Origin: a virus
Strand: one strand, 5' to 3'
Length of the DNA stretch: 31,997 nt
Virus record (IMG/VR): IMGVR_UViG_3300025849_001557
Span: 1-31,997 of that record
How positions within the stretch are numbered: position 1 is the stretch's first letter; the number at the start of each line of letters is the position of its first letter. The position numbers were made by a program, and so were the translations under genes. The notes beneath the pieces are model-generated. The model had not been told where the DNA came from, did not search any database, and saw only the letters and a program-made list of their open reading frames with translations. Positions 613-29,900 of this stretch are shown piece after piece.

Positions 613-2187
613 ATGTCTGACAAAATAGTCAAAAACTTAAGCTTTGGTGACAAAGCTAAGTTTGAAGTATTTAAAGGAATAGAACAACTCACAAGTGCTG
701 TTGGCTCCACATTAGGGGCCAGCGGTAAATGTGTGATAATGGAGGACAGTAACGGTGATCCTATAATAACAAAAGATGGTGTTACAGTTGCTAATTCTAT
801 TATATTAAAAAATCCTATTCACAATATGGGTGCTACACTTTTAAAAGAAGCAGCACGTAAAACGGTAAAAGAAGCTGGAGATGGAACCACCACAGCAACA
901 ATATTAGCACACGCTATATTAGCTGAGGTTTATAACTCTAAGCAAAAAGATACTAGTATAAGAGTAACTAAACAAAACATCTTAGAAGCTGTTAATGACG
1001 TTATAAGTTATATAGATAAAAACAGTATTGAAGTGTCAGGTGACATGATAGATAATGTAGCAACTATATCAACTAATAACGATAAAGAGTTAGGTAAGTT
1101 AATAGCTGATGCTTTTAGAGAGGTTGGCACAACGGGTGTTGTAACAATGGAAGCCTCTGAATCAGGTAACACGGAAGTTGAAATACTAGAAGGCGTTGAA
1201 TATAATAGAGGTTATTCTCACGCAAACTTTACAACTAATAAAGAAAAGAAAACCGCTGAATTAGAAAATCCAGTTGTTTTAATAATGGAATCAAAAGTAG
1301 ATTCAATAAGGCAAATACAATCAGTTTTAGAACATGTTATAAAAAATAATAAATCATTATTATTAATAGCTGAAATAGAACCACCAGTGTTATCAGCTCT
1401 TATGATGAATAAAATGAAGGGTAATATAAAGCTTAATGTTATTGAGCCTCCTTCTTATGGTTTAAATAGAAAAACAATACTAGATGATTTAGCTTTGCTA
1501 ACAAATTCTACGATTGTAAATGAAGACCTAGGAGACGACTTAAGCGTTATAGACTTAGATTACTTAGGTCAATGCGTTAAAGCTTCTTCTGACAATGAAA
1601 GAACGATTATAACAGTAGATGATCTAAGTGACGAAGTGCTAGACATTATAAAAAGCATTAAAAAAGAATTAAAGCAGAAAAATAAACCACATACAATTAT
1701 AAATCTAGAAAGAAGATTGGCTAGATTGTCAGCTAAAGTAGCTATAGTTAAAGTTGGTGCTAATTCTGATATTGAATTAAAAGAAAAAACAGATAGAGTC
1801 GAAGACGCTATTTGCGCTACTAAAGCCGCAATAAAAGAAGGTATAGTACCAGGTGGAGGAATCGCCTTATTAAACGCTTCAAATAATTTAAAATCTAAAT
1901 CAATAGGCCAGCAGTGTTTATACAATGCTATAAAAGCTCCTTTTAATATGATACTAAGTAATGCAGGTTTGTCTTTAACTAAAAAACAAGATGATTATTT
2001 AGTTTCTAATGAAGGTTATGGTTTAGATGTGGTTACAGGAAATATGGTAAATATGGTAAAAGAAGGTATTATAGACCCTTCTCTTGTTACTAAAAGTGCC
2101 CTTATAAATGCGGCTTCTGTAGCTACAACTATTATGTCAACCGATTGTGTAATCAATAACGTAAGAGTAGATGAAAGCGCTAGGTAG
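613..2187 (+). CDS. groEL: Phage-encoded chaperonin GroEL (60 kDa family)
   Basis: This is a group I chaperonin that would form an ATP-driven folding chamber in the host cytoplasm together with the GroES encoded next. The 524 residues cover the full fold. Visible signatures are the ATP-site segments ITKDGVTVA (D55) and GDGTTTAT (from G89), EDA with D398, and PGGG with the glycines at 414-416. These match the E. coli catalytic residues D52, D87 and D398, so ATPase activity is expected. The C-terminal segment GIIDPSLVTKSAL is also canonical. The protein ends in VRVDESAR and lacks the GGM-rich tail of bacterial GroEL. In the apical domain, positions equivalent to the GroES/substrate groove differ from E. 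coli: RGYSHANF replaces RGYLSPYF, and LMMNKM replaces LVVNTM. Sequence divergence and phage gene context argue against a host gene on a misassembled contig. The end overlaps groES by 17 bases. Confidence 0.96.
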   Translation: MSDKIVKNLSFGDKAKFEVFKGIEQLTSAVGSTLGASGKCVIMEDSNGDPIITKDGVTVANSIILKNPIHNMGATLLKEAARKTVKEAGDGTTTATILAHAILAEVYNSKQKDTSIRVTKQNILEAVNDVISYIDKNSIEVSGDMIDNVATISTNNDKELGKLIADAFREVGTTGVVTMEASESGNTEVEILEGVEYNRGYSHANFTTNKEKKTAELENPVVLIMESKVDSIRQIQSVLEHVIKNNKSLLLIAEIEPPVLSALMMNKMKGNIKLNVIEPPSYGLNRKTILDDLALLTNSTIVNEDLGDDLSVIDLDYLGQCVKASSDNERTIITVDDLSDEVLDIIKSIKKELKQKNKPHTIINLERRLARLSAKVAIVKVGANSDIELKEKTDRVEDAICATKAAIKEGIVPGGGIALLNASNNLKSKSIGQQCLYNAIKAPFNMILSNAGLSLTKKQDDYLVSNEGYGLDVVTGNMVNMVKEGIIDPSLVTKSALINAASVATTIMSTDCVINNVRVDESAR

Positions 2188-2431
2188 AAATTTAATAATA
2201 GAAAAAATAAAAGAAGGAACTACCTCAACAAAAGGTGGTTTACTTTTAGCTGAATCACATAAAGATGACATTAGGTATTTAAAAGCCAATGTAATTAGTA
2301 TAGGTGATGAAGTTGAGGGATTGAATACTGGTGATGTTATATTTTACGACAGACATTCAGGTCACAAAGTAGAATTAAAAGATAAGTCGTACCACGTAAT
2401 AAAATTACAAGACGTGGTCGTTGTTTTATGA
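2171..2431 (+). CDS. groES: Phage-encoded co-chaperonin GroES (10 kDa family)
   Basis: The 86 residues have the cpn10 plan: an N-terminal strand (NLIIEKI), a mobile loop at about residues 15-32 with TKGGLLLAES, a second strand (KANVISIGDE), then GDVIFYDRHSG and the closing strand YHVIKLQDVVVVL. The loop tripeptide LLL replaces the usual IVL that docks on the GroEL apical groove. The stretch between VISIG and GDV is only about eight residues (DEVEGLNT). In bacterial GroES this is where a longer insert forms the roof beta-hairpin. A missing or short roof is known for T4 gp31, where it enlarges the cage. The start lies inside groEL (17-base overlap), and the stop overlaps the next gene by 4 bases (ATGA), so translational coupling is likely. 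Gene order groEL-groES is the reverse of most bacterial operons. Confidence 0.93.
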   Translation: MKALGRNLIIEKIKEGTTSTKGGLLLAESHKDDIRYLKANVISIGDEVEGLNTGDVIFYDRHSGHKVELKDKSYHVIKLQDVVVVL

Positions 2432-2877
2432 AAAAGCTATCAGCAAGTGATTTAAAAGATATAAACTTGCTTAAACATTACCGGATAATCCGCAAATGGG
2501 CTTCCAAAAACAACGACTTAAATGAAGCTGATTTAGAGTTGTTAATATACTTAGACTGTGTTGACTTATTTACAATTAAAGATTTCAAAAAAGGTGTTTA
2601 TTCTTATAGCTGGGATAACAGAAGGTGGAGTAGATTAATAAAAGATAATTGGATAGTTGTTTGGAGAAAAAGAAATAGAACTAATCAAACTTATAATATA
2701 TATAAGGTTTCTGTTAAAGGCAAACAATTAATTAGTAGGATGTATAGAATAATGCTACAAGAAGAAGAAATACCAACTAGCACTAGAAGAAATAAAATAA
2801 TGAAAAGAAAAACATATATGGATAAAGTATTGACTACATCTATAAATGATATAAACAAGGAAATAAATAAAAACTAA
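2428..2877 (+). CDS. Basic protein with possible winged-helix fold, coupled to groES
   Basis: The 149-residue product starts in an ATGA overlap with groES and is probably read by the same ribosomes. After a helical N-terminus there is a helix-turn-helix-like pattern: NEADLELLIYLD, then FTIKDFKKG, then WDNRRWSRLIKDNWIVVW. A strand pair and the segment YKVSVKGKQLISRMYRIML follow, which looks like the wing and last helix of a MarR-type winged-helix domain. The C-terminal third is strongly basic (STRRNKIMKRKTYMD). Nucleic-acid binding is therefore plausible, either as a regulator or as a packaged protein. The fold call is pattern inference only. Confidence 0.75.
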   Translation: MKKLSASDLKDINLLKHYRIIRKWASKNNDLNEADLELLIYLDCVDLFTIKDFKKGVYSYSWDNRRWSRLIKDNWIVVWRKRNRTNQTYNIYKVSVKGKQLISRMYRIMLQEEEIPTSTRRNKIMKRKTYMDKVLTTSINDINKEINKN

Positions 2878-5945: not shown

Positions 5946-6407
5946 ATGCCAAAAAAGAAGTTTTCCGAAACAAAAGTAGGTAAGTTTTTAGGTAGTGTTG
6001 CACCAGGAATATTAGGTGTAGCAAGTGACTTATTGCCAGACGCTGGCTTATTAAACGTTGTTAAAGGTTTAATAATAAAAGACGAAACTATCAAACCTGA
6101 AGACAAAGAAACTGCTTTAAAACTATTAGAACAAGATCAAGTAGAGATGCAAGAAGTGTCCAAGCGTTGGGCAAGTGACATGAAATCTGATTCATGGCTT
6201 TCTAAGAACACACGCCCAATGTCTTTGATATTTTTAACAGTATCTATGGTAATACTTATACTACTAGATAGTTTTAAAATAGAGTTTCATGTAGCTGAGG
6301 GATGGGTTTCATTATTGCAAACTCTTTTAGTTACAGTGTACGTTGCGTACTTTGGTTCACGGGGAGCGGAAAAATTCAAAAGTATAGGTAATAATAATAA
6401 TAAGTAA
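5946..6407 (+). CDS. Holin of the 3TM (GTA holin-like) family
   Basis: This would make holes in the host inner membrane at the end of infection. The 153 residues start with a soluble part containing a Gly/Ala-rich amphipathic segment (SVAPGILGVASDLLP) and a helix (ETALKLLEQDQVEMQEVSK). The segment RWASDMKSDSWLSKNTRPM (about 74-92) is a hallmark of the phage 3TM holin family. It is followed by two clear membrane spans at about 93-110 (LIFLTVSMVILILLD) and 119-136 (SLLQTLLVTVYVAYFG), and a short charged tail. No endolysin is seen nearby; it may lie outside the window. The start is seven bases after the previous stop. Confidence 0.85.
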   Translation: MPKKKFSETKVGKFLGSVAPGILGVASDLLPDAGLLNVVKGLIIKDETIKPEDKETALKLLEQDQVEMQEVSKRWASDMKSDSWLSKNTRPMSLIFLTVSMVILILLDSFKIEFHVAEGWVSLLQTLLVTVYVAYFGSRGAEKFKSIGNNNNK

Positions 6408-6691: not shown

Positions 6692-6911
6692 TATTATTAG
6701 AAAAATCAGTATTGGCTCTGATTATAAGAACGATGCAATGCATTATTCTTTAGGTCAGCAAGTGTATGGTGGTCACGTTATATCACATATATTAGAAGAT
6801 ACTGAAGATAATTCTTATAATATTCATATAAAGAAAGATGATGAAATATTGCCGTGGAAGAAGTTTAATTCTAACATGGCAATATCCATCGAGTACGACT
6901 TACAGTATTAA
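6684..6911 (+). CDS. Conserved phage protein of unknown function, 75 aa
   Basis: The 75-residue beta-rich protein has ISIGSDYKNDAMHYSLGQQV near the front, then a GGHVISHI strand, a Tyr-Asn-Ile strand pair and a closing WKKFNSNMAISIEYDLQY. I recall this 'DYKnaMHY.vGQ.v.gG' and 'W..Fn..mp.s.EY' pattern from small proteins in phages of Bacteroidota, without an experimental function. It overlaps the previous gene by 8 bases, and its last base is the first base of the next start (TAATG), so the three genes are coupled. Confidence 0.75.
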   Translation: MNNIIRKISIGSDYKNDAMHYSLGQQVYGGHVISHILEDTEDNSYNIHIKKDDEILPWKKFNSNMAISIEYDLQY

Positions 6912-7522
6912 TGAACTCATTATACGACTTTATAGTTAGACCTCTTGGAAAAGAATATTCTAACGATATAAATATAGGTGGCATAAAGTTAATTTTAAAC
7001 ACCAAGATAGAAAGTTTTAAGTTTGTAAATAACTTAGCTGTAGTTGTTTCAATTCCTCTAGCTTATAAAACACATATTAATGTTGGCGATATAATAGTTA
7101 TACATCATAATGTGTTTAGAACTTTTTACGATATAAAAGGTAAAAAGAAAAAAAGCAGATCTTGGTTTAAAGAGGATTTGTATTTTTGTTCTTTAGATCA
7201 AGTTTATTTATATAAGGATAAAAAAGACGATGATTTTAAATCTATAAACAATAGATGCTTTATAAAACCATTAAAATCAAAACGCAAGTTTAGCGTAGAT
7301 AAAGAGCAAAAGCTTATTGGTATATTAAAAATAGGTAATAGTTCGTTAGAAGCCGCCGGTGTGAGCGAGGGAGACCTTGTTGGTTACACCCCGTATGGAG
7401 AGTATGATTTTATTATTAATAATGAAAGATTGTACTGTATGAAATCAAATGATATTGTAATTAAATATGGAGATAAAGAAAACCAAACTGAATATAATCC
7501 AAGCTGGGCAAATAGCGGTTGA
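6911..7522 (+). CDS. Putative tandem GroES-like (double cpn10 fold) protein, 203 aa
   Basis: The protein appears to contain two cpn10-like beta barrels. Residues 5-100: YDFIVRPLG, then IGGIKLILNTKIES, a strand FVNNLAVVVSI and GDIIVIHHNVFR. This follows the order first strand, loop with GG, second strand, GDxV strand of GroES. Residues 113-187: NNRCFIKPL, LIGILKIGN, then SEGDLVGYTPYGEYDFIINN and ERLYCMKSNDIVIKYG. The last part follows the GroES end (GDIVIF..GYG, then EEVLIMSESDILAIV) closely. The second unit seems to lack a long mobile loop. It might partner with the phage GroEL, cap a ring as a pseudo-dimer, or use the barrel for another task in head assembly. The fold is inferred by eye. It sits in a coupled set just before the terminase genes. 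Confidence 0.65.
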   Translation: MNSLYDFIVRPLGKEYSNDINIGGIKLILNTKIESFKFVNNLAVVVSIPLAYKTHINVGDIIVIHHNVFRTFYDIKGKKKKSRSWFKEDLYFCSLDQVYLYKDKKDDDFKSINNRCFIKPLKSKRKFSVDKEQKLIGILKIGNSSLEAAGVSEGDLVGYTPYGEYDFIINNERLYCMKSNDIVIKYGDKENQTEYNPSWANSG

Positions 7523-7748
7523 TGAATTAATAAAGGTGGCTAAAGAACCTATTGTAGACTCTGGTGATGATATATCAGCAGATCGTTTAAAAAACGCAGC
7601 GGCAACAAAAAAACTAGCTATATTTGATGCTTTTGAAATATTAACAAGAATTCAAGAGGAGAAAGATATATTAAATGAAAAACCTAAAGAAGTGAAAGAA
7701 GAAAAAGCTTTTAAAGGTTTTGCTGAAGGAAGGTCTAAAAATGTATAA
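7467..7748 (+). CDS. Putative terminase small subunit, 93 aa
   Basis: The 93-residue helical protein lies directly before the large terminase. It reads NIIQAGQIAVDELIKVAKEP, then DDISADRLKNAAATKKLAIF, and DAFEILTRIQEEKD. That order (helix, Asp-rich turn, AAATKK helix, long charged helix) is remembered as common just upstream of terL in flavobacterial and crAss-like phages. Small terminases recognise viral DNA and regulate the motor, but there is no clear helix-turn-helix here, so the role rests mainly on position. The chosen start overlaps the previous gene by 56 bases. No nearer in-frame ATG preserves the first helix. Its last 8 bases overlap the terL start. Confidence 0.65.
   Translation: MEIKKTKLNIIQAGQIAVDELIKVAKEPIVDSGDDISADRLKNAAATKKLAIFDAFEILTRIQEEKDILNEKPKEVKEEKAFKGFAEGRSKNV
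7725..7733 (+). promoter_or_regulatory. Shine-Dalgarno-like box before terL
   Basis: GAAGGAAGG ends seven bases before the ATG at 7741. It is the only clear purine-rich box of this kind in the window, where other starts follow A/T leaders. It favours 7741 over the upstream in-frame ATG at 7720. The box also encodes residues of the preceding protein, so selection may act on either. Confidence 0.45.
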
Positions 7749-9957
7749 GCAAAGTTTATATAAAATATTAGATAATTATATTAACGCTAAAATTCTTAAA
7801 AGAAATAATAAGTACAAAAAGTGGGAGTATGGTTATAATGAAAAGCATGATATTGTTATAATATCCAAAGATGGTACTATAGGTGATGTATATGAAATAG
7901 ATAACTTAAAAATAGCATTACCATCTACTCCAGAAAAAGTTATTAATTTAGGTAATAAAAAATGGAGCAAGGTTGATCCACCTGTAGAATTTAAGAGTAT
8001 AAAAACAATATTCGACTGGGAGGATTACCCTATAGAGTTTAAAGAAAAATGGTATGATTACATCAATGATGAGTTTAATAAAAGAGAAAAAGGTTTTTGG
8101 TTCATTAATAAGGACATTCCTACTTATATTACTGGTACTCATTACATGTACTTGCAGTGGTCCAAGATTGATGTTGGGAAACCAGACTTTAGGGAATCAA
8201 ACAGATTATTCTTTATATTCTGGGAAGCTTGCAAGGCCGATATTAGATCCTATGGGATGTGCTACCTTAAGAACCGTAGATCTGGATTTTCTTTCATGTC
8301 ATCAGCTGAAATTGTTAATCTTGCAACAATATCCTCGGATTCACGGTTCGGTGTATTGTCCAAATCTGGACAAGATGCTAAGAAGATGTTCACTGACAAG
8401 GTGGTACCAATCTCTGTTAATTATCCGTTCTTCTTCAAACCCATCCAGGACGGAATGGACCGTCCAAAGACCGAGCTTGCCTACAGGGTCCCGGCCTCGA
8501 AATTTACCAGGAGACGACTCGATTCCAAGGATAGATCCAAGCAAGAAGCCCTTGAAGGTTTGGACACGACCATCGACTGGAAGAACACGGGTGATAACGC
8601 CTACGATGGGGAGAAACTTAAACTCCTCGTCCATGATGAATCGGGGAAGTGGGAAAGGCCGAACAACATCCTCGACAACTGGAGGGTTACAAAAACCACC
8701 CTTAGATTAGGTAGTAGAGTAATTGGTAAGTGTATGATGGGATCAACATCAAACGCTTTAGATAAAGGAGGAGATAATTTTAAAAAATTATACTACGATT
8801 CAGATGTTACAAAAAGAAACGCCAATGGACAGACTCGCTCAGGACTATATTCTTTGTTCATTCCTATGGAATGGAACTACGAAGGATACATTGATTCTTA
8901 TGGAATACCTGTCTTCGACACACCACAGAAAGCAGTTACAGATCCGCATGGCACGAAGATAAAGCAAGGTGTAATAGAGTATTGGCAGAATGAAGTTGAA
9001 GGATTAAAAGGTGATCAAGACGGTTTAAATGAATTTTATCGCCAGTTTCCAAGAACAGAGGAACACGCTTTTAGAGATGAAGCAAAACAATCTTTATTTA
9101 ATCTAACTAAAATATATGAGCAAATAGATTGGAACGGAGACTTGAGACATAGTAATTTAATAACTCAAGGTAATTTTCAATGGGAAAATGGAATAAGAGA
9201 TACTAAAGTTATTTTTGTCCCTCATAATAAGGGTAGATTTTATGTATCTTGGATACCATCACCACATTTGCAAAATAAAATTATAATAAAAAGAGGTTTA
9301 AAATACCCAGCTAATGAACATATGGGGGCTTTTGGTTGTGATAGTTATGATATATCAGGAACAGTAGACGGTAGAGGATCTAACGGAGCTTTACATGGTT
9401 TAACCAAGTTTAGTATGGAAGATGCTCCAGCTAACCACTTTTTTCTAGAATATATAGCTAGACCTCAAACTGCAGAAATATTTTTTGAAGATGTATTAAT
9501 GGCTTGCATATTTTATGGTATGCCTATACTTGCAGAGAATAATAAACCTAGATTATTATATCATTTTAAGAGAAGAGGATATAGAGGTTTTGCAATGAAC
9601 AGACCAGATAAACTTAAATTATCAGTAACAGAAAGAGAGATAGGTGGAATACCAAACTCTAGTGAGGATATAAAACAAGCACACGCTGCTGCAATTGAAT
9701 CATATATTGAAGATTTTATTGGCATAAAAAACAATGGTGAACACGGGGAAATGTATTTTCAAAGAACACTAGAGGATTGGGCCAAGTTTAATATTAATAA
9801 TAGAACAACACATGATGCTTCTATAAGCTCTGGTTTAGCAATAATGGCTTGTAATAAAAACAAGTATAGACCTGTAGCACGTCTAGAGAAAAAAGTTTTT
9901 GATCTAGGAATAAAAAAATACAGTAATAACGGTCTTATGTCAAAAATAATTGAATAA
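7741..9957 (+). CDS. terL: Terminase large subunit (ATPase and nuclease)
   Basis: This is the motor that cuts concatemers and pumps DNA into the prohead. With the start at 7741 it has 738 residues. The ATPase half shows a Walker A-like KNRRSGFSFM (177-186, an Arg-rich variant also seen in related phages), Walker B LLVHDE (295-300) and coupling motif GSTSN (334-338). The nuclease half has an RNase H-like first acidic cluster FGCDSYD (D534, D537), a downstream Glu-containing helix/strand region, and THDASISS with D692. An upstream ATG at 7720 would add seven residues. I prefer 7741 because of the purine box and the 8-base overlap with the small subunit. The stretch encoding roughly residues 160-320 is far richer in G+C than the rest; see findings. 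No frameshift is seen. Confidence 0.93.
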   Translation: MYKQSLYKILDNYINAKILKRNNKYKKWEYGYNEKHDIVIISKDGTIGDVYEIDNLKIALPSTPEKVINLGNKKWSKVDPPVEFKSIKTIFDWEDYPIEFKEKWYDYINDEFNKREKGFWFINKDIPTYITGTHYMYLQWSKIDVGKPDFRESNRLFFIFWEACKADIRSYGMCYLKNRRSGFSFMSSAEIVNLATISSDSRFGVLSKSGQDAKKMFTDKVVPISVNYPFFFKPIQDGMDRPKTELAYRVPASKFTRRRLDSKDRSKQEALEGLDTTIDWKNTGDNAYDGEKLKLLVHDESGKWERPNNILDNWRVTKTTLRLGSRVIGKCMMGSTSNALDKGGDNFKKLYYDSDVTKRNANGQTRSGLYSLFIPMEWNYEGYIDSYGIPVFDTPQKAVTDPHGTKIKQGVIEYWQNEVEGLKGDQDGLNEFYRQFPRTEEHAFRDEAKQSLFNLTKIYEQIDWNGDLRHSNLITQGNFQWENGIRDTKVIFVPHNKGRFYVSWIPSPHLQNKIIIKRGLKYPANEHMGAFGCDSYDISGTVDGRGSNGALHGLTKFSMEDAPANHFFLEYIARPQTAEIFFEDVLMACIFYGMPILAENNKPRLLYHFKRRGYRGFAMNRPDKLKLSVTEREIGGIPNSSEDIKQAHAAAIESYIEDFIGIKNNGEHGEMYFQRTLEDWAKFNINNRTTHDASISSGLAIMACNKNKYRPVARLEKKVFDLGIKKYSNNGLMSKIIE
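8221..8700 (+). other. GC-rich mosaic patch inside terL
   Basis: By hand count, 8461-8700 contains 125 G+C of 240 (52%), while 8701-8820 contains 36 of 120 (30%). The 60-base rows from 8221 to 8460 are between 35 and 47%. Inside the patch codons such as CTC, GTC, GCC, CCG and AGG appear, which are rare elsewhere. The reading frame is continuous. The patch encodes the Walker region and the segment between Walker A and B. Confidence 0.8.
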
Positions 9958-13592: not shown

Positions 13593-15077
13593 ATGGCTTT
13601 AACTCCTCAATTTGGTTCGATAGTACCATCGCAAGCTCAACAAACTCTTGCGAGTAATTATCTACAATTTGACAATGGCACGAACGATTTCGCACAACAA
13701 TACTTACCTGAGCTTTATGAGCAAGAGGTAGAAAGATATGGTAACAGAACGTTATCAGGATTTTTACGTATGGTTGGAGCAGAAATGCCGATGACATCTG
13801 ATCAAGTTATTTGGTCTGAACAAAACAGACTACACATTTCATACGATAACTGTACAGTTGCTGGTGCTGCCGGTGCTGCTGCAACTATCACAATCCCTGT
13901 TACAGCTGCTAACGCTGCTGTACCAGTACTAAACGTTATTTCTCCACTATCAACTATTGTTGTAATGGATGACTTTGGAAACGAAGTAAAATGTTTAGTT
14001 ACTTCTTCTGACACACGCGCTGCCGGTGGTGGTGGTAACCCAGGAAGATTAATAGTTGAACCTTACCAAGGTGCTAACCTTGCTGCTAGCGGTATTGCTA
14101 ACGGTAATCCAGTTAAGATCTTTGTATATGGTTCTGACTTTCAAAAAGGAAGTAGTACGTTAAATGCTCCTCAAGGCGCTAACGTTGGAGCTTCAGCTGC
14201 TAACCCTATGGTTACTGTTGATCCTGCATTTACTACTTTTTCTAACTCTCCAATAATCTTAAGAAGCCAATACACAATCAATGGTTCTGACACTGCTCAG
14301 ATCGGTTGGGTAGAAGTTTCTACTGAAGATGGAACTGGAGGTTATTTATGGTATCTAAAAGCTGAGTCTGAAACAAGACTAAGATTTGAAGATTACTTAG
14401 AAATGGCAATGGTTGAAGGTGAACTTAACGCAGGCGCTGCTGGTGTACCAGCTGCTAATCCTGGAACTGAAGGTTTATTTGCTGCTATTCAAAATGGCGG
14501 TAACGTTGAAGTAGGTTTCACTGCTGCTGCTGGTTTAGATTCATTTGATGACATTCTTAAAAACCTTGACACTCAAGGAGCTATTGAAGAAAACATGTTA
14601 TTCTTAAACAGAGCCACTGCTCTTGATTTTGATGATATGTTAGCTGGTATCTCTGGAGGTTTTGCAGGTGGTGTAGCTTTCGGTTTATTCGAAAACTCTG
14701 AAGAAATGGCATTAAACTTAGGATTCTCTGGATTTAGAAGAGGTTCTTATGATTTCTATAAAACAGATTGGAAATACTTAAACGACGCTTCAACGCGTGG
14801 TGCAATGACTGGTCCTGCTTCTATCGAAGGAGTATTAGTTCCTGCAGGTACTTCTACTGTTTATGACCAAATCTTAGGTACAAACATTAGACGTCCTTTC
14901 TTACATGTAAGATATAGAGCTTCTCAAGCTGATGACAGAAGAATGAAATCATGGTTAACTGGTTCAGTTGGTGGTGCATTCACATCTTCATTAGATGCAA
15001 TGGAGGTAAACTTCTTATCTGAAAGATGTTTAGTAACTCAAGCTAGAAACAACTTTGTATTATTCAAAGGGATCTAA
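13593..15077 (+). CDS. Major capsid protein
   Basis: The 494-residue protein follows the scaffold gene and has the composition of an HK97-fold shell protein. Its N-terminus (QAQQTLASNYLQFDNG, then PELYEQEVERYGNRTLSGFL) resembles the major capsid proteins of crAss-like and flavobacterial phages. It has a large Ala/Gly-rich insertion near residues 88-105 and long beta stretches. The C-terminus ends MEVNFLSERCLVTQARNNFV. Codon use differs from most neighbours: AAC, TTC, ATC and GCT are frequent and ATA scarce, as expected for a very abundant protein. The leader is AATTAAAATTACAAATTATG. A strong hairpin with alternative forms follows the stop. Confidence 0.9.
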   Translation: MALTPQFGSIVPSQAQQTLASNYLQFDNGTNDFAQQYLPELYEQEVERYGNRTLSGFLRMVGAEMPMTSDQVIWSEQNRLHISYDNCTVAGAAGAAATITIPVTAANAAVPVLNVISPLSTIVVMDDFGNEVKCLVTSSDTRAAGGGGNPGRLIVEPYQGANLAASGIANGNPVKIFVYGSDFQKGSSTLNAPQGANVGASAANPMVTVDPAFTTFSNSPIILRSQYTINGSDTAQIGWVEVSTEDGTGGYLWYLKAESETRLRFEDYLEMAMVEGELNAGAAGVPAANPGTEGLFAAIQNGGNVEVGFTAAAGLDSFDDILKNLDTQGAIEENMLFLNRATALDFDDMLAGISGGFAGGVAFGLFENSEEMALNLGFSGFRRGSYDFYKTDWKYLNDASTRGAMTGPASIEGVLVPAGTSTVYDQILGTNIRRPFLHVRYRASQADDRRMKSWLTGSVGGAFTSSLDAMEVNFLSERCLVTQARNNFVLFKGI

Positions 15078-18486: not shown

Positions 18487-21400
18487 ATGGCTGAAGTTAA
18501 AAATGCTTTTATAGCTTCTAAAATGAACAAAGATCTTGATGCAAGACTTGTTCCGTCAGGAGAATACAGAAATGCAATAAACGCTCAGATTAGTAGATCT
18601 GAAGGAGCAGATGTGGGTGCTTTAGAAAACGTTTTAGGTAATCAGCTTAAAGTAGATTTTTCTTTATTAGTTTCTTTGCCATCAGGTACTTTAAAAACAA
18701 TAGGTACTTATGTAGATGAGATTAATAATTTTATATATGTTTTTTTAACTAACCACACAGGTAGCACTTATAGCACTACAGCTAAAAATTATATATTTAG
18801 ATACGATGTTTTAAGTGGTACATCTGTTAAACTTGTAGAAGGTGCTTTTTTAAATTTTTCTACACAAAATAAAATATACGGTATAAATGTCTTAGAAGAT
18901 TTTTTATTTTTTACTGACAATAGAAATCAACCTAGAAAAATTAATACAGTAATAGCGGCTGGATATGGAAATCCTTATGACAGTGAAGATACAATAAGTG
19001 TAGCTAAAATTAACCCATATCAACCAATACAGCTTTATCAAAAAATAACATCTAGCATAGCTAGTGAGTTTACGGCACCATCAACAGATCAAGCTATAAA
19101 TAGCTATCAAACTACTATGCAGAATGTTAGTGATGAAAAACTACCCGATGGCACTAGTAACAATCCTTATTATGATTCTAATTTTGTTGGTGATACAGAG
19201 TTATTAGATGACAAGTTTATTAGATTTTCTTATAGGTTTAAATTTAAAGACGGAGAATACTCTTTATTAGCTCCTTTTACTCAAGTAGCTTTTATACCTA
19301 AACAAGATGGTTATTTTTTATATGATGCTTCGGATAACATAAACGATATGAACGATGCTTTACAAAGTACAGTTGTTCAGTTTATGGAAAATAAAGTAGA
19401 TAAAATACAGTTAATAATTCCTATGCCATTAAATGAAGTTGGTGCTTCTTTAACAACCGGTACTATTAGTAGTTCTTTAGATATTGATGAAATAGATATT
19501 ATATATAAAGAATCTGGAAATTTATCTATACAACTAGTAGATACTATAACATCAGATCAACTAACGGGAACATCTACTTTTTATAATTATTCTTACAATT
19601 CTACTAAACCTTGGAAAACTCTTCCGCCATCAGAATTAACTAGAGTGTACGACAAAGTACCTGTTAAAGCTTTAGCTCAAGAAGTTACAAGTAATAGAAT
19701 TGTTTACGGTAATTATCAAAACAAACACACTTCTCCAGAGTCATTAGATTATAATTTAGCAGCAACATTTAAAAGTGCCTTCGCCGTGAATACAGGTGCT
19801 AATGAAGTAACTAATACCACTAGCATCGTAGAATATCCTAACAGTACTTTAAAGCAAAATAGAAATTATCAAGTTGGTTTTGTTTTATCAGATAGATACG
19901 GAAGATCTTCTTCTGTCATATTATCTAATGCTGATGACAATGTACAATCAGGTGGAATTAATTATGGTGGATCGACTTTATATTTACCGTATAGAGATGC
20001 TTCACTTCAAACCGAAACTTTTCCAGGCGATTCTTTAAAGGTTATATTAAATTCTTCTATAGGTCCAGCGGATCCTAACCCATCAACTAATTGGCCTGGT
20101 ATATATAACGGAGACAAAACAAGTTCTGATTATAATCCTTTAGGTTGGTATTCTTACAAGATAGTTGTAAAACAAACAGAACAAGATTACTACAATGTAT
20201 ATCTTCCCGGTGTTATAGCTGGACAACCTAAAACATCTGAAGACAATGGTGATGAAAATGAAAACACTTTATCTCATACCGTCTTGCTAAATGATAATAT
20301 AAATAAAGTACCTAGAGATTTAACAGAAGTCGGACCGCAACAAAAACAATTTAGAAGTTCAGTTCGTTTATTTCCAAGAGTAATAAACACAGACAAAGTT
20401 CCAACAAACAATACCGCTAATACTCAGTACACTATAGGTGAAGGTAACAAGCAATTTCAAACATCGCAAAAGGGTTTAACTGTTTCCACGATATCAAATC
20501 TTAGAGATTTATTTGATTACGATCCAATTAATCCACCCGTGCCAGATCAATTTCCTCAATTTTATTTATATGATTCTAATCCATTAATTGCTAGATTAAG
20601 TACAGAAAATAAATTAGGTGAATTAGCGGACTTTACGACTCCTTCCGGTAATAAGTCCTACGAGGCTGGTAGTACTATTTTTGGTACACCATTTTTTCCT
20701 TTAAGTACTAACTGTAATGATGGTGTTGTTGATGACACAACCTCTTATTTTGCATCATCAAACACACCAGCGTTTGTAACAGGTACACAGGGTCTACCAA
20801 CAACATATGTATCCACTAATCTTTTTGAGGCAAATTGGGTTGGTGGTCCAACAGGAATAAATATTTCTGGATGGAAACTAGATTGTACAGCCACTGGAGC
20901 TTCAACTAACCCTGCTGGTACTAATAAAAAGAATTGGTTATTGTTTGATGATGATACTCAAATACCTGTTGGAAAGCAAGTTAAAATAACTGGTAGACGT
21001 GGTGGTATAAACCCTGGAATACAGCAACTATCTGTAATGGAAACAGATGCTGTAGATTCTTTAATTGATATATACTATGAAACAACATCAGCTGGATTAA
21101 TAACAGATATAAACAACGTAACCGCTACAGACACTGGTGCGGCAACTGCTTTATCTGGATTTGTACCCGTAGGTTTTAATGAAGGAATTGCTCTTAATGC
21201 TAGTGTTTTTAATGCTAGTAGTGGTGTTAAAGCTTTAAACGCGGCAAATCAAGTTATACCTACTGCAGATACTACTCCATCTGGATCTAACACTGTTGTA
21301 TTTGCTATGACAAGCGTTATGAATAACGAATCAACACCAGCTAATGTAACAAGTTATTTTTCAAACTGGACTGGTAACCAAGCAACTGGTTTTACTGTAA

Positions 21401-22242
21401 CTATAAATCAAGATTTCTTAAACAATGTTTGGTATGGTAGCAATGTAGGTCAAAGAACTTTTATATTTAACTTTACTGTTTCTGTAAACGGCTTTAATAA
21501 CTCTACGTCATTTTCAAGAACTATAGACTTAGAAAATATAAATCCTATATTATGTCCTAATGGAAACGCTATAGACGTAAATTTAAGTGTATCAGCTAGC
21601 CAGATAACAAACATTGTAGCTAAAAACGGAGCAAGTCCTTGTGTGGCTAACGGTAATTTAAACTCAGGTAGAGATATCACATGGAGTATTATTTCAGCCG
21701 TAGGAGCCAACGGTAATAGTTATGTAAATAGATTTTCAATAGCTAGCACAGCTACAAATCTACAATCTACCGCTACGCTTAGTAGAAGTATGGGTGGTAA
21801 TTTTATTACTCAAAATTATACTGTAACAGTTAGAGCCAGTGATCCAGGTGGCTCAACAGATCAAGTAGTTAATATAACTATGGGTAACACGCCTCAATAC
21901 GTTAAAGACCATGTTTTAACATTAGTATTAGCAGGTGAAAGTCAAGGTGATGATTTCGAATGTACCATAATAAGTATAAATGATAGTACCACAGCAAATA
22001 ATGGGTGGTATATTTTTGATTACGAATGGGATACTTTAAATAACTCTAATCCAATATTACTAGATAGAACTAATGCTTGTACTGGTAATTGCTCTCAGTT
22101 TAGTGGTGAGTGGTTTTTTAGTTCAACAAGTCAATCTGATGCTTTAGACTTATGGGAGGCGTCTAAACCAAGCGGATCTTACGCTGGCTCAACTACTACC
22201 ACCATAAACATAGGATCAAACTATCAGTTTGCTATTGTGTAA
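18487..22242 (+). CDS. Large tail/muzzle structural protein, N-terminal-type half, 1251 aa
   Basis: Residues 13-30 (MNKDLDARLVPSGEYRNA) and the following EGADVGALENVLGN are the family signature of long tail or 'stabilisation' proteins in flavobacterial and crAss-like phages. The front half has repeated strands (NFIYVFLTN, NYIFRYDVLSG, DFLFFTDNRNQPRKINT) that fit a beta-propeller. From about residue 700 the sequence changes to Ser/Thr/Asn-rich, immunoglobulin-like beta domains (for example GINISGWKLDCTATG), ending in TTTTINIGSNYQFAIV. In the relatives I recall, the propeller is followed in one chain by the domain that here is encoded separately at 22663-24138. The stop overlaps the next start (TAATG), so the nucleotidyltransferase-like gene is coupled to it. 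Confidence 0.82.
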   Translation: MAEVKNAFIASKMNKDLDARLVPSGEYRNAINAQISRSEGADVGALENVLGNQLKVDFSLLVSLPSGTLKTIGTYVDEINNFIYVFLTNHTGSTYSTTAKNYIFRYDVLSGTSVKLVEGAFLNFSTQNKIYGINVLEDFLFFTDNRNQPRKINTVIAAGYGNPYDSEDTISVAKINPYQPIQLYQKITSSIASEFTAPSTDQAINSYQTTMQNVSDEKLPDGTSNNPYYDSNFVGDTELLDDKFIRFSYRFKFKDGEYSLLAPFTQVAFIPKQDGYFLYDASDNINDMNDALQSTVVQFMENKVDKIQLIIPMPLNEVGASLTTGTISSSLDIDEIDIIYKESGNLSIQLVDTITSDQLTGTSTFYNYSYNSTKPWKTLPPSELTRVYDKVPVKALAQEVTSNRIVYGNYQNKHTSPESLDYNLAATFKSAFAVNTGANEVTNTTSIVEYPNSTLKQNRNYQVGFVLSDRYGRSSSVILSNADDNVQSGGINYGGSTLYLPYRDASLQTETFPGDSLKVILNSSIGPADPNPSTNWPGIYNGDKTSSDYNPLGWYSYKIVVKQTEQDYYNVYLPGVIAGQPKTSEDNGDENENTLSHTVLLNDNINKVPRDLTEVGPQQKQFRSSVRLFPRVINTDKVPTNNTANTQYTIGEGNKQFQTSQKGLTVSTISNLRDLFDYDPINPPVPDQFPQFYLYDSNPLIARLSTENKLGELADFTTPSGNKSYEAGSTIFGTPFFPLSTNCNDGVVDDTTSYFASSNTPAFVTGTQGLPTTYVSTNLFEANWVGGPTGINISGWKLDCTATGASTNPAGTNKKNWLLFDDDTQIPVGKQVKITGRRGGINPGIQQLSVMETDAVDSLIDIYYETTSAGLITDINNVTATDTGAATALSGFVPVGFNEGIALNASVFNASSGVKALNAANQVIPTADTTPSGSNTVVFAMTSVMNNESTPANVTSYFSNWTGNQATGFTVTINQDFLNNVWYGSNVGQRTFIFNFTVSVNGFNNSTSFSRTIDLENINPILCPNGNAIDVNLSVSASQITNIVAKNGASPCVANGNLNSGRDITWSIISAVGANGNSYVNRFSIASTATNLQSTATLSRSMGGNFITQNYTVTVRASDPGGSTDQVVNITMGNTPQYVKDHVLTLVLAGESQGDDFECTIISINDSTTANNGWYIFDYEWDTLNNSNPILLDRTNACTGNCSQFSGEWFFSSTSQSDALDLWEASKPSGSYAGSTTTTINIGSNYQFAIV

Positions 22243-22637
22243 TGAAATTGTATAGTAAAAAAGAAATAGATATCTATATAAAAAAATTGTTACAATTAAA
22301 ATGGGCTAATTATGATGTATATTTAGTAGGTGGTGCAATTTATAAACAAGAAACAAAAGATATAGATATATGTATTGTTGGGTCTAGTGATTCAAATAAA
22401 GTTTCTAAATTAATAGAACAAAGTAGAAAGTTAGGTCCATTTGATATTTATTATTGTAATGAAGATCAAATAGGTAATCAAAAACCACGTGCTGCTAAAT
22501 CTTATGATAGAGGTCATATCAAAGCAAAACAAAGAAAAGGTGAATGGATTGATGGATTATTCTGGCAATATTTAGACTTTTCGTATAAAAAATTTAATCC
22601 AAAACCACTATTAATATATAAAGGTAGCGGAAGTTAA
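22242..22637 (+). CDS. Nucleotidyltransferase-fold (pol beta-like) protein, 131 aa
   Basis: The segment YLVGGAIYKQETKDIDICIV carries GG at 30-31 and the Asp-x-Asp pair D40/D42. This is the signature of the pol beta nucleotidyltransferase superfamily (GG, spacer, DhD). A third acid may be D68 in GPFDIYY. The chain is short for this superfamily, with no obvious second domain, so it would be a minimal enzyme that adds a nucleotide to a protein, RNA or small molecule. The C-terminal part (RGHIKAKQRKGEWIDG, FWQYLDFSYKKFNP) is basic and aromatic. It is coupled to the large tail gene by a one-base overlap and separated by 25 bases from the next tail gene. The substrate is unknown; it might modify a host factor or be non-catalytic. 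Confidence 0.68.
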   Translation: MKLYSKKEIDIYIKKLLQLKWANYDVYLVGGAIYKQETKDIDICIVGSSDSNKVSKLIEQSRKLGPFDIYYCNEDQIGNQKPRAAKSYDRGHIKAKQRKGEWIDGLFWQYLDFSYKKFNPKPLLIYKGSGS

Positions 22638-22662
22638 TAAAAAAATAAGTAACTATATTAAT

Positions 22663-24138
22663 ATGGCGGCTATAATAGAAGTAAAATATTTCAACTCTTT
22701 TCTATTGAAAAAGACTATTGGTAGTTCAAATAAATTACCTTTATGGAATGGCTCTAGAGGTATTCCTAAAGTTGGTAATATGCAGGGTGGTTATAGTCAA
22801 GTTGGAACAGCTTATAGTTCTACAGATAACTGGCTTGTAGAGGAATCTAGAATAAGAGGAGGTTATAATAATACTATCGTTGATTTAGGGCCTAGAGCTT
22901 TTTTAGTAGAAGAAGAATTAAACGGCGTGCAGAGAATTAACTCGTTGATATATTCTGGAATATTTAATTCTAGAACAGGTATAAATCAGACAAATGTTTT
23001 TCCAGTAGGTGAAGACATTAGCAAAAGTTTAGATCCTTCACAAGGTAGCATACAAAAGTTATTTGCTGAAAACACGAACTTAACTATATTTCAAGAAAAT
23101 AAAGTTAGCTATTCTTTAATAGATAAAGATGCTATATATACAGCTGAAGGTGGTGGTGTTCAAGTAAGTCAATTAAATTTAGTGTTAGGTCAGATAGTAC
23201 CTTACTTAGGTAATTTTGGTATAGGTAAAAATCCAGAATCATTTGCAACTTATGGATTTAGAAAATATTTTGTTGATCCAGATAGAGGTGCAGTATTAAG
23301 ACTGTCTAGAGATGGTATAACTGAAATATCTAATTACGGTATGTATGACTTCTTTAGAGATGAATTATCTAATGTAAACACTAATACTAGTTCTGGAAAT
23401 ATGCCAGGTGGTTGGGATATACACAACAAACAGTATGTGGTGTCTTTACAAAATACAGCTGACAGCAAGTTCAGCACATTATCTTTCGATGAGTCAGTAA
23501 GGGGTTGGACTAGTTTCTTTACTTACAAACCAGAGTTTATGGTTAGTTTAAGAAATGATTTTTACAGTTTTAATAACGGTATACTATATCAACACTATAG
23601 TGATTCTGTAAACAGAGGAAATTTTTATGGAGTAAATAATAATACATCTATAACATTTATATTTAACCCTAATGTTAGTATGTCTAAAAACTTTAAAACT
23701 ATAAACTATGAAGGTAGTAATGGTTGGAGAATAGACTCTATAGAATCTGATCAAACTGGACCTGATAATTATAACGGTGTTTATAGTAATGTTACAGATC
23801 TTACAGCTTCTATACCTAGTTATTTGGGGGGAGAATACATATTAAACCCAGTTACTAATGAGGTTGTTTACCCAGCACAGTATGGTACTGTATTTGGAAA
23901 TGATAATCCTCCATATAATAGAAGCTACGCTGGGTTTGTTAGAAAAGAAAACAAGTATGTTGCAAACCTAATTAATGCAACACCATCTACTCAAGGTGAA
24001 GTTATATTTGGTAACCAAATGAGTGGTATAAAAGGGTACTTCACAACAGTAACAATATCAACAGACGATGCAACAGCAGTAGGAGAAATTAAAGAATTAT
24101 TTGCTGTCTCTTCTGAATATGTGCAGTCGGCTTATTAA
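22663..24138 (+). CDS. Tail/muzzle structural protein, second-half type, 491 aa
   Basis: The signature EESRIRGGYNNTIVDLG (60-76), NSLIYSGIFNSRTGINQTN and LRLSRDGITEISNYGMYDFF are strongly conserved in tail-associated proteins of flavobacterial and crAss-like phages. Several short repeats of Tyr/Phe-rich strands fit a beta-propeller. The segment NFKTINYEGSNGWRIDS precedes a variable tail domain. In relatives as I remember them, this domain follows the region encoded at 18487 in one long polypeptide. Here the two are separate genes with the nucleotidyltransferase-like gene between. It begins 25 bases after that gene with an AATATG start. It is probably part of the tail hub or tail knob. Confidence 0.8.
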   Translation: MAAIIEVKYFNSFLLKKTIGSSNKLPLWNGSRGIPKVGNMQGGYSQVGTAYSSTDNWLVEESRIRGGYNNTIVDLGPRAFLVEEELNGVQRINSLIYSGIFNSRTGINQTNVFPVGEDISKSLDPSQGSIQKLFAENTNLTIFQENKVSYSLIDKDAIYTAEGGGVQVSQLNLVLGQIVPYLGNFGIGKNPESFATYGFRKYFVDPDRGAVLRLSRDGITEISNYGMYDFFRDELSNVNTNTSSGNMPGGWDIHNKQYVVSLQNTADSKFSTLSFDESVRGWTSFFTYKPEFMVSLRNDFYSFNNGILYQHYSDSVNRGNFYGVNNNTSITFIFNPNVSMSKNFKTINYEGSNGWRIDSIESDQTGPDNYNGVYSNVTDLTASIPSYLGGEYILNPVTNEVVYPAQYGTVFGNDNPPYNRSYAGFVRKENKYVANLINATPSTQGEVIFGNQMSGIKGYFTTVTISTDDATAVGEIKELFAVSSEYVQSAY

Positions 24139-26946: not shown

Positions 26947-29900
26947 ATGGAAGAAGTTTATATCATAGATGGTAATGAATATACTCTAGCTGAAATACAA
27001 GACTTTGCTTCAGCGGCGGGTTTAGAACTAGAAGATTATTTATCTAAAAATAACATAAGTAAAAAAGAAATTAAGAACGCTGAACAAGATTTTCAAAAGG
27101 GTGTTGTAGACAATGTGGATGCAACTGTAACACCCAAAGCTCCGGAAGCATCCGAGACTCCAAGTACTATGGAACAAGTTTTGGACGTTGGTTCTTTGGG
27201 CTCGTCATTAGCAAATCCCATACTAGGAATATCTAATTTATTTAGATTAGCTAAAAAATATGATAAAGGAGAAGAGGGTGATTTTAGTGTAACTGAAGAA
27301 CTAAAAGATATACCCCAAAGGGTTTGGGCCTCAACATTATCAGTGGGTGAGACTTTATCTAATGTACCTGGTTGGTTAAATAGACTACAATTCAATATTG
27401 CTAAATCTTTTGCTGACGAGGAGTTTCAAGAAAAGTTTGACGAAATGAGCGCACAAGAACAAGATGATCTTGTACAAAACATTTCCTCTGCTACAGCCGC
27501 TGCAACTCCTGGTGTTGGAGGTTTTATACCAGCTTTAGGTAAACCAGGAAGAGAAAAAGCAGCTGAACTTAAAGCATCTGCTGAAAAATGGAGAGAAGAT
27601 TTAGAAGAATATGATAAAACTATATTCCAAGCTTTTGCTCAAGGACAAGTAATAGAAGGTGTTACAAGAACTTTTGCTGGCGCTATGGAAACAATACCAT
27701 CAATAGCTCAAGCTATGATACCTTATGTGGGTATAGGTAGTATAGTAGCTGGTCAAGCCGCTCAAGCTGATGCTGAAAATATAGAAAAAGGTGAAAAATT
27801 AAATACAAAAAATTTAATATATTCAACAATTATAGGTGCTTCTGAAGGTTTATTAGAAATTACTACTAAAAAAATAGGTGGTAAAATGTTTAAGGATCTT
27901 GCTGGTAAAAGCAAAGAATATGTTAAGCAAACGCTTAAAGGTGTTACTCTAAAATTAAGTAAAGAAGCTGGATCAGAGGGTTTATCAGAGTCTGCTACGT
28001 TAACCATTAATAAAGCTGCTGATATGCTTATTATGGGTAATGAAAAAGCTTTTGAAAACTATTGGTTAGAACTGGCTGATACTTTTATAATAGGTGCTGC
28101 AACTGGTGGCGGTATGAGTGGTACAGGTACTGCTGGTATTATAATCAGGGATGCTCAAGCAAATAATTCTATGCGTAGAAGTATTGAAGATAGTCAATAC
28201 AACTCAATATTTGAGGCTTTTGATGGAACTGAAATTACAGATGATAAAATTAAATTAGCTGAAAATAAATTTGCTAATAGAAAATTAGAATTAGAATTAA
28301 AGCAAAAAGTATCATCAGGTGACTTAACAATAGAACAAGCTAACGATATAAAAATAAATTTTAGATCAACTCAAGGAGCAGTTAATATAGCTAAAAACCT
28401 AAAAATACAAGGTCCTTTATTAAAAGAAACAGTACAGTTATTGGAAGAAAGCTCTTTACTTAGAGCTGAAATAAAAAAAGCAGGTGACAACAAAGCTTTA
28501 GTAGATACACAAAAGAAAAAATTAGTAGAAATAGAAAATAGATTAGGGCAAATAAGTGCTGAAAATCAATTAGCTATATCTACAGAAACAATAACTGATT
28601 TATCTAAAGGAGTTGAAGGTTTAACTGTTTTCACGGTTGAAAATGCTAAAGAAGCTGAAACATTATCTAAGGACCCTAAGTTTGACAACGTTGACAAGAA
28701 AGCGTTTGGACAACAAGGTTTTATATTGCAAAATAAAGAAACTGGTGAACAAACTATAGTTATAAATAAAGAGCAATCAGCTAAAGATCTTGCTGTTGAT
28801 GTAGCAAATCATGAATTTCTACATGCTTTATTATTTAAAACATTAAAAAATAGTAAAGGTACTGCTATAAATTTAGGTAAGGAATTAAAAACAGAGTTGT
28901 TTAAAATTGAAGGTATAGAAAATACTGAGTTTGCAGCTAGGTTAGAACAATATAAAGCAGATCCTGAGTCAGTAAAAATGGAGGAAGTTTTGACTTTATT
29001 TTCTGGAGCTATACAAACAGGTGATATAAAATTTAACCAAGGATTTTTTACTAAAGTTGGTGATATAATAAGAAGATTTTTACAAAACGCTGGATTAAAA
29101 AACATTAAGTTTAACGAAGCTAAAGATGTTTATAACTTTATAAAAGATTATAATACAAGTCTAGAAAAAGGTAAATTAACAAAAGCTCAGGAAAAATTAT
29201 TTACTGAACGAGCTCAAGGTGATTTAGTTAAAAGAGAATATAAAACAAAAGATGATTCAACTGTTAAAGAGTCTAAATCTTTTTATGATAGCTTAACGCC
29301 TGAAGAGTTGGTTCAAATTAAAAAATCTCCATCAAGCCAACCATCTGAGATTTCAAAAGCAGATAAAGCTTTGTTAAATCAATTTGATTTATTAGCTTTA
29401 AATGCTTTAAATTATGATACACGTAAAGGTGATTTTAAAAGAGAAGATGTTTTATCTGCTGCTAGAGAATTTTTACCAGGTATAGTAGAAAGGTTTGATC
29501 CTAATACAGCTAAGTTTTCTACATTTGTAGACAACAATATGAGACCTAAACAACAGCAGATATACGAAGAGGTAAAAGGATTATCTCGTGAGGCTGATAG
29601 ACTTGATTCTCCTGAGGCTAAAGAAATTGTAGCTGAAGAAACCGTTGTAGAAGAAAAACCAGTTGTTAAAGAGACTAGAATTAATCCATTAAACTTTGAC
29701 AAAGTAAACAAAGCAGAGGTTGAAGCTGTAGTTGATATAAAAACAGAAGAGATACCTGGTTTGTCTTTTAAGGAGGTTTCTGATAGATATGCAGGTAAAG
29801 CTGCGTCAAAAATATTTAACGTACCAGAAGCTAAAATAACTGATCCGAAGAAAAACTTAACATATGCTAAGAAAATAGTAAATGGTATACCAGAACAATC

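Follow-up and report, generated by a model that had tools for sequence, protein, structure and literature searches.

The phage genome fragment analyzed here carries a groEL and a groES gene in reversed, overlapping order and, directly 5' of the terminase gene, a further gene whose product resembles a second GroES-type lid. Taken as a whole, we consider it reasonably probable that these genes supply a phage chaperonin cage that acts in virion assembly and is closed by lids of two types. This reading is based on gene content, order and conservation, an intact ATP site, mobile-loop motifs and a phage-specific ancestry. The window, i.e. the whole stretch of DNA that was analyzed, corresponds to the entire IMG/VR record IMGVR_UViG_3300025849_001557 (31,997 bases). 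It covers part of the genome of a tailed phage, the genomes of relatives measuring ~60-77 kb. The phage group of the window includes Elemovirus, MW202828, Panino and the Cellulophaga phi38:1 phages; this is a large phage family, with marine and freshwater Flavobacteria-like bacteria as hosts. A scan of viral contigs yielded 113 relatives, the best 80 of which were kept.

Conservation of the chaperonin gene pair

The pair and the gene that follows it are located as follows:

613..2187, + strand: groEL (Cpn60), 524 aa; assigned by Pfam PF00118, phrog_5725 and ATP-site residues
2171..2431, + strand: groES (Cpn10), 86 aa; assigned by Pfam PF00166, mobile loop and profile matches
2428..2877, + strand: predicted MarR-like winged-helix protein, 149 aa; assigned by AF2, Foldseek and a profile match

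The initial annotation had described overlaps of 17 bases between groEL and groES and of 4 bases between groES and the next gene, and these coordinates are exact. Since short gaps and overlaps are frequent across the whole window genome, the overlap per se is unremarkable, and its special part is its conservation. GroEL and GroES overlap in all 81 clade loci (54 loci with 17 nt, 19 with 20 nt, seven with 4 nt and one with 1 nt), and the 4-nt overlap between groES and the third gene recurs in 77 of them. Such an overlap may couple the translation of cage and lid. The order GroEL then GroES, with a homologue of the third gene present, was found in the window, in the best 80 of the 113 relatives and in three reference phages.

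Of the 81 nearest loci from bacteria, 73 have GroES before GroEL and one has the two the other way round, while in seven GroES is out of view. The groES-groEL order, previously cited as the bacterial norm, thus holds for 73 of the 74 loci with GroES in view. The one exception comes from Candidatus Brocadia carolinensis, where GroEL comes first and a gap of 80 bp separates the two genes. For the Bacteroidota phages immuto and DAC16, groES was located directly 5' of groEL, while in Calle it is 5' of groEL with one gene between. The order in these three phages indicates that the reversed arrangement is a trait of a lineage that includes Elemovirus and Panino and not of phage GroELs generally. With respect to a promoter of groEL's own, matches to TANNTTTG and sigma-70-like matches were no more frequent than expected by chance, or fewer.

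The third coupled gene had been proposed to belong to the same chaperonin system, and this proposal found no support. The AF2 model of its product (2428-2877; pLDDT 84.7) matches almost exclusively MarR-family structures in Foldseek, with a probability of 1.00 but a best E-value of 0.032, which is weak; there is a profile match to TcaR (E 0.047) and no Pfam match. The gene is encoded on the strand opposite to groEL-groES in Elemovirus, MW202828 and Panino, and its homologue in phi38:1 is distant from groES. A chaperonin component is therefore unlikely, because the predicted fold and the strand switches indicate a DNA-binding protein. It is probably a regulator that moves together with the late genes.

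The cage and its single-barrel lid

By analogy with well-known homologues, the GroEL/GroES pair can be regarded with good confidence as a folding cage and its matched lid. The groEL product scores 193 bits against PF00118 (Cpn60; Pfam cut-off 34.3) with 488 of the 490 positions covered, matches phrog_5725 at an E-value of 4e-136 and aligns over residues 7-515 to solved GroELs, as expected for a full-length three-domain Cpn60 sequence. Its ATP-site residues D55, D90, T93, D398, G414-416 and D488 correspond to D52, D87, T90, D398, G414-416 and D495 of the E. coli protein. They are invariant across 32 non-redundant clade members save for G415 (31 of 32, with one G415A). Pfam and the alignment to E. 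coli GroEL thus bear out the claim of a full-length GroEL with an intact ATP site, and the protein would be expected to assemble into rings. The GGM tail is absent from the phage GroEL. All 32 clade members carry Q236 at the position of E. coli GroEL L234, a GroES-contact residue. This replacement counts against the proposed reading; it may reflect a mutual tuning of GroEL and GroES.

The groES product scores 48.1 bits against PF00166 (Cpn10; Pfam cut-off 21.1), and its profile matches solved Cpn10s and Cpn20. Its mobile loop contains a hydrophobic tripeptide (TKGGLLL in the window), and a GGLLL or GGLIL loop is present in 31 of 34 non-redundant GroES sequences. The mobile loop comprises 25 residues in the phage as compared to 22 in bacteria, and the phage roof loop, at 8 aa, is shorter than that of Bacteroidota (12 aa) and of most bacteria (17 aa). 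An enlarged cage arising from the short roof loop was considered, but the case is weak because the Campylobacterota roof loop also has 8 aa.

Phylogenetic placement was assessed in a maximum-likelihood tree of 124 GroEL sequences, including 32 window-clade and 81 bacterial rows, in which branches are long and the deeper joins uncertain. The 32 window-clade GroELs form one clade (SH-aLRT 100) outside all 81 bacterial rows, and this clade groups with Elemovirus and Panino (support 96). The best bacterial matches are ~40% identical to the window GroEL.

A predicted tandem-barrel protein upstream of the terminase

The remaining genes that bear on the proposed function are encoded further downstream on the same strand:

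6911..7522, + strand: tandem (two-barrel, Cpn20-like) co-chaperonin-like protein, as predicted, 203 aa; assigned by phrog_13932, AF2 and a Cpn20 fold match
7467..7748, + strand: 93-aa ORF between the tandem gene and TerL, with a conserved counterpart in MW202828 (47% identical)
7720..9957, + strand: terminase large subunit (TerL), phrog_6681 (E 1.5e-165); fixed downstream neighbor of the tandem gene
13593..15077, + strand: virion structural protein of 494 aa, probably the major capsid protein, phrog_13704 (E 6e-84)

The tandem protein, overlooked in the first reading of the window, matches PHROG 13932 'co-chaperonin GroES' (E 5e-24). AlphaFold2 predicts two beta-rich domains in succession (pLDDT 76.3, pTM 0.70), and the top PDB match by predicted fold is Chlamydomonas Cpn20, 7ekq_R (E 5.8e-5 over 205 columns, TM 0.53-0.55); comparison with the predicted cpn10 of phi18:3 gives a TM of 0.71. 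The C-terminal half is recognized as Cpn10 by profile (hhalign 97.8%, E 6.6e-13 against 70 bacterial GroES). Sequence comparison of the N-terminal half with Cpn10 was not significant (hhalign 12-27% with narrow and broad profiles, in local and global mode), so its identity as a barrel rests on the predicted fold. In 228 of 249 sequences, the N-domain has three consecutive hydrophobic residues at its mobile-loop site, and N-domain loops of outgroup proteins resemble classic GroES loops, e.g. GGVE, NGLIL and SGLEL. The mobile loop of the C-domain is short and devoid of the tripeptide in the window clade, so that the window protein does not carry a GroEL-binding mobile loop in each barrel; in the alignment, the C-domain loops of phi38:1, Calle and phi13:2 are longer.

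The genomic position of the tandem gene is fixed. It is directly 5' of TerL on the same strand in all 162 loci with both genes visible, at a distance of -4 to 307 nt, and the larger gaps may hold a small ORF, as in the window. The position of the window's own small ORF (7467-7748) suggests a small terminase or a helper; it has no PHROG match and no detectable match to the longer TerL N-terminus of Elemovirus and Panino.

The tandem gene was present in all 12 GroEL-bearing contigs that were searched whole. Conversely, of 12 contigs selected for carrying the tandem gene, 10 had GroEL and GroES, including all eight of at least 38 kb; the other two are 34-kb fragments. At least 600 pattern matches to the tandem protein were counted in IMG/VR. 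Among reference phages, GroEL, GroES and the tandem protein are all present in phi38:1, Calle, Elemovirus, Panino and MW202828, and all absent from Gundel_1. Phage phi13:2 (NC_021803) has a single GroES (30087-30311) and a tandem gene (40708-41310) while GroEL is missing, which makes it a natural example of a phage with lids and no cage. The tandem protein is thus not strictly tied to a phage cage, which suggests that it can work with host GroEL or has a GroEL-independent role. A host origin of the tandem protein was also considered and rejected, as no copy was found among 300 Zobellia-family genomes with the same model that recovered the phage copies at E-values of 1e-48 to 1e-104.

A holin-like gene is located at 5946-6407 (phrog_3427, E 7.6e-20), so that the chaperonin genes are followed, within one gene run, by a lysis gene. 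Two further observations concern the virion genes. At 18487-24138, two ORFs that lie apart both match one long virion protein family (phrog_14478, 1474 positions), and the 131-aa ORF that separates them is weakly nucleotidyltransferase-like; the virion gene thus seems to be split in the window lineage. At 26947-31995, the record ends inside a gene that encodes at least 1683 aa; its Elemovirus equivalent measures 11 kb.

Proposed function and alternatives

We propose that the phage makes its own group I chaperonin cage, in which GroEL would be closed by the matched single-barrel GroES lid encoded in overlap with it. The morphogenesis operon would contribute, from just 5' of the terminase, a second lid-like protein with tandem barrels resembling plastid Cpn20. 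Late in infection, the cage with one or both lids would fold or protect virion and packaging proteins of the phage, which would then not need to compete for the host GroEL and GroES. The 494-aa capsid-like protein, suggested as a client in the initial annotation, is a plausible guess with which its size is consistent.

The second lid is less certain than the pair. We lean only slightly toward the tandem protein binding GroEL and acting as a lid. The main competing explanation, which we regard as possible although clearly less probable than the proposed two-lid cage, accepts the pair as described and takes the tandem protein for a virion-assembly or packaging protein. It would have retained the GroES fold as a scaffold, as a portal or terminase partner or a structural part, and lost chaperonin binding. 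Its fixed place directly 5' of TerL and portal fits such a role, as do the short C-domain loop in the window clade, an N-terminal half too diverged for sequence recognition and the occurrence of the tandem protein without a phage GroEL in phi13:2. However, the hydrophobic residues of the N-domain mobile loop are kept in most sequences and the outgroup loops are GroES-like, the longer C-domain loops are kept in phi13:2, phi38:1 and Calle, and all checked reference phages with the tandem protein also have a single-barrel GroES.

It is unlikely that GroEL and GroES act as a general infection-stress helper or a modifier of host proteostasis instead of folding virion proteins. The gene neighborhoods of two relatives would agree with that: groEL of Calle adjoins DNA replication genes rather than structural ones, and groEL-groES of Elemovirus are encoded on the strand opposite to the late genes. 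In the window clade, however, the pair shares its strand with the lysis and structural gene run. Known phage systems likewise point to phage clients: gp31, a phage-encoded lid, acts on behalf of the capsid protein gp23 (PMC5780408), and a phage protein has been discussed as a client of the EL chaperonin (PMC7185714).

Contamination with host DNA, or a groE operon recently acquired from the host, was the simplest ordinary account beforehand, but nothing was found in its favor and it can be dismissed given the separate GroEL clade, the low identity to cellular proteins, a phage gene neighborhood identical in kind across all related loci and the reversed gene order. In particular, the GroEL tree and the flanking genes rule out contamination, for which placement within a host clade had been named as the sign. 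The claim of a phage-owned pair therefore stands: the two genes overlap and are conserved as a unit, and the GroELs form a clade of their own.

Relation to known chaperonin systems

The Flavobacterium phages elemoA-F of Elemovirus (e.g. NC_055853) resemble the window in the adjacent order of groEL then groES, in a cpn10-annotated protein directly 5' of TerL and in homologous TerL and virion proteins. They differ in the strand of the pair relative to the late genes and in a third gene that is convergent and not coupled, and their GroEL is only 40% identical to that of the window. Caudoviricetes sp. MW202828 (Manatee Spring) has the closest TerL (63.5%) and a groEL that overlaps groES in the same order, whereas its third gene, on the opposite strand, is annotated as 'repressor protein' and its GroEL is 34% identical. 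The trio of GroEL, GroES and tandem protein is shared with phi38:1 and Calle (Callevirus, Pervagoviridae); unlike in the window, the third gene is far away, and in Calle groES, 5' of groEL beyond one intervening gene, is beside replication genes.

The assertion in the initial annotation that few phages carry both genes is out of date. Some phages are described with both GroEL and GroES (PMC7185714), and the Panino paper notes both genes (PMC11590407). According to Nishimura 2017 (PMC5332604), GroEL occurs in 36 of 78 phi38:1-like environmental genomes, and in these marine phages it is the same kind of gene as that of the window. T4 gp31 is likewise a phage-encoded lid with the capsid protein as client (PMC5780408), but it is single-barrel and uses the host GroEL, whereas the window phage supplies GroEL as well. 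Phage EL gp146 is a phage-encoded GroEL relative with ATPase activity (PMC7185714); no GroES partner is known for the EL chaperonin, and E. coli GroES is not bound by it.

Chloroplast Cpn20 (Chlamydomonas, 7ekq) also has two GroES barrels in tandem within ~200 aa, as modeled for the phage protein, and coexists with single-barrel Cpn10 (PMC5780408) in the same way as the tandem protein with GroES. The two share ~13% identity, their likeness being one of predicted fold, and the C-domain loop of the phage protein is short. A doubtful extension of the proposed two-lid cage is that a chloroplast-like two-lid system evolved independently in these phages. GroES and the Cpn20-like tandem lid would act on one phage GroEL, mixed seven-barrel or alternative caps would set cage size and client choice, and the tandem lid would be dedicated to capsid and packaging proteins.

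The reversed pair is already known in kind, being annotated in the Elemovirus records; for the tandem protein, GenBank and PHROGs already use the labels cpn10 or GroES. Within a limited range of open literature, no description of a phage tandem co-chaperonin, or of its two-barrel form, was found. Marine et al. (2017, ISME J) reportedly examined virioplankton chaperonins and linked the gene order of the large and small subunits to GroEL phylogeny. On its own, the reversed pair adds little to the knowledge of chaperonins in virioplankton. If confirmed, the conserved combination of GroEL, GroES and a tandem co-chaperonin-like protein in this large and widespread phage group would provide a natural system for studying how a two-barrel lid fits a seven-fold cage, a symmetry problem already posed by plastid Cpn20 (PMC5780408), and for asking why two lids are needed by a phage. 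For Elemovirus and Callevirus, the hosts are in culture.
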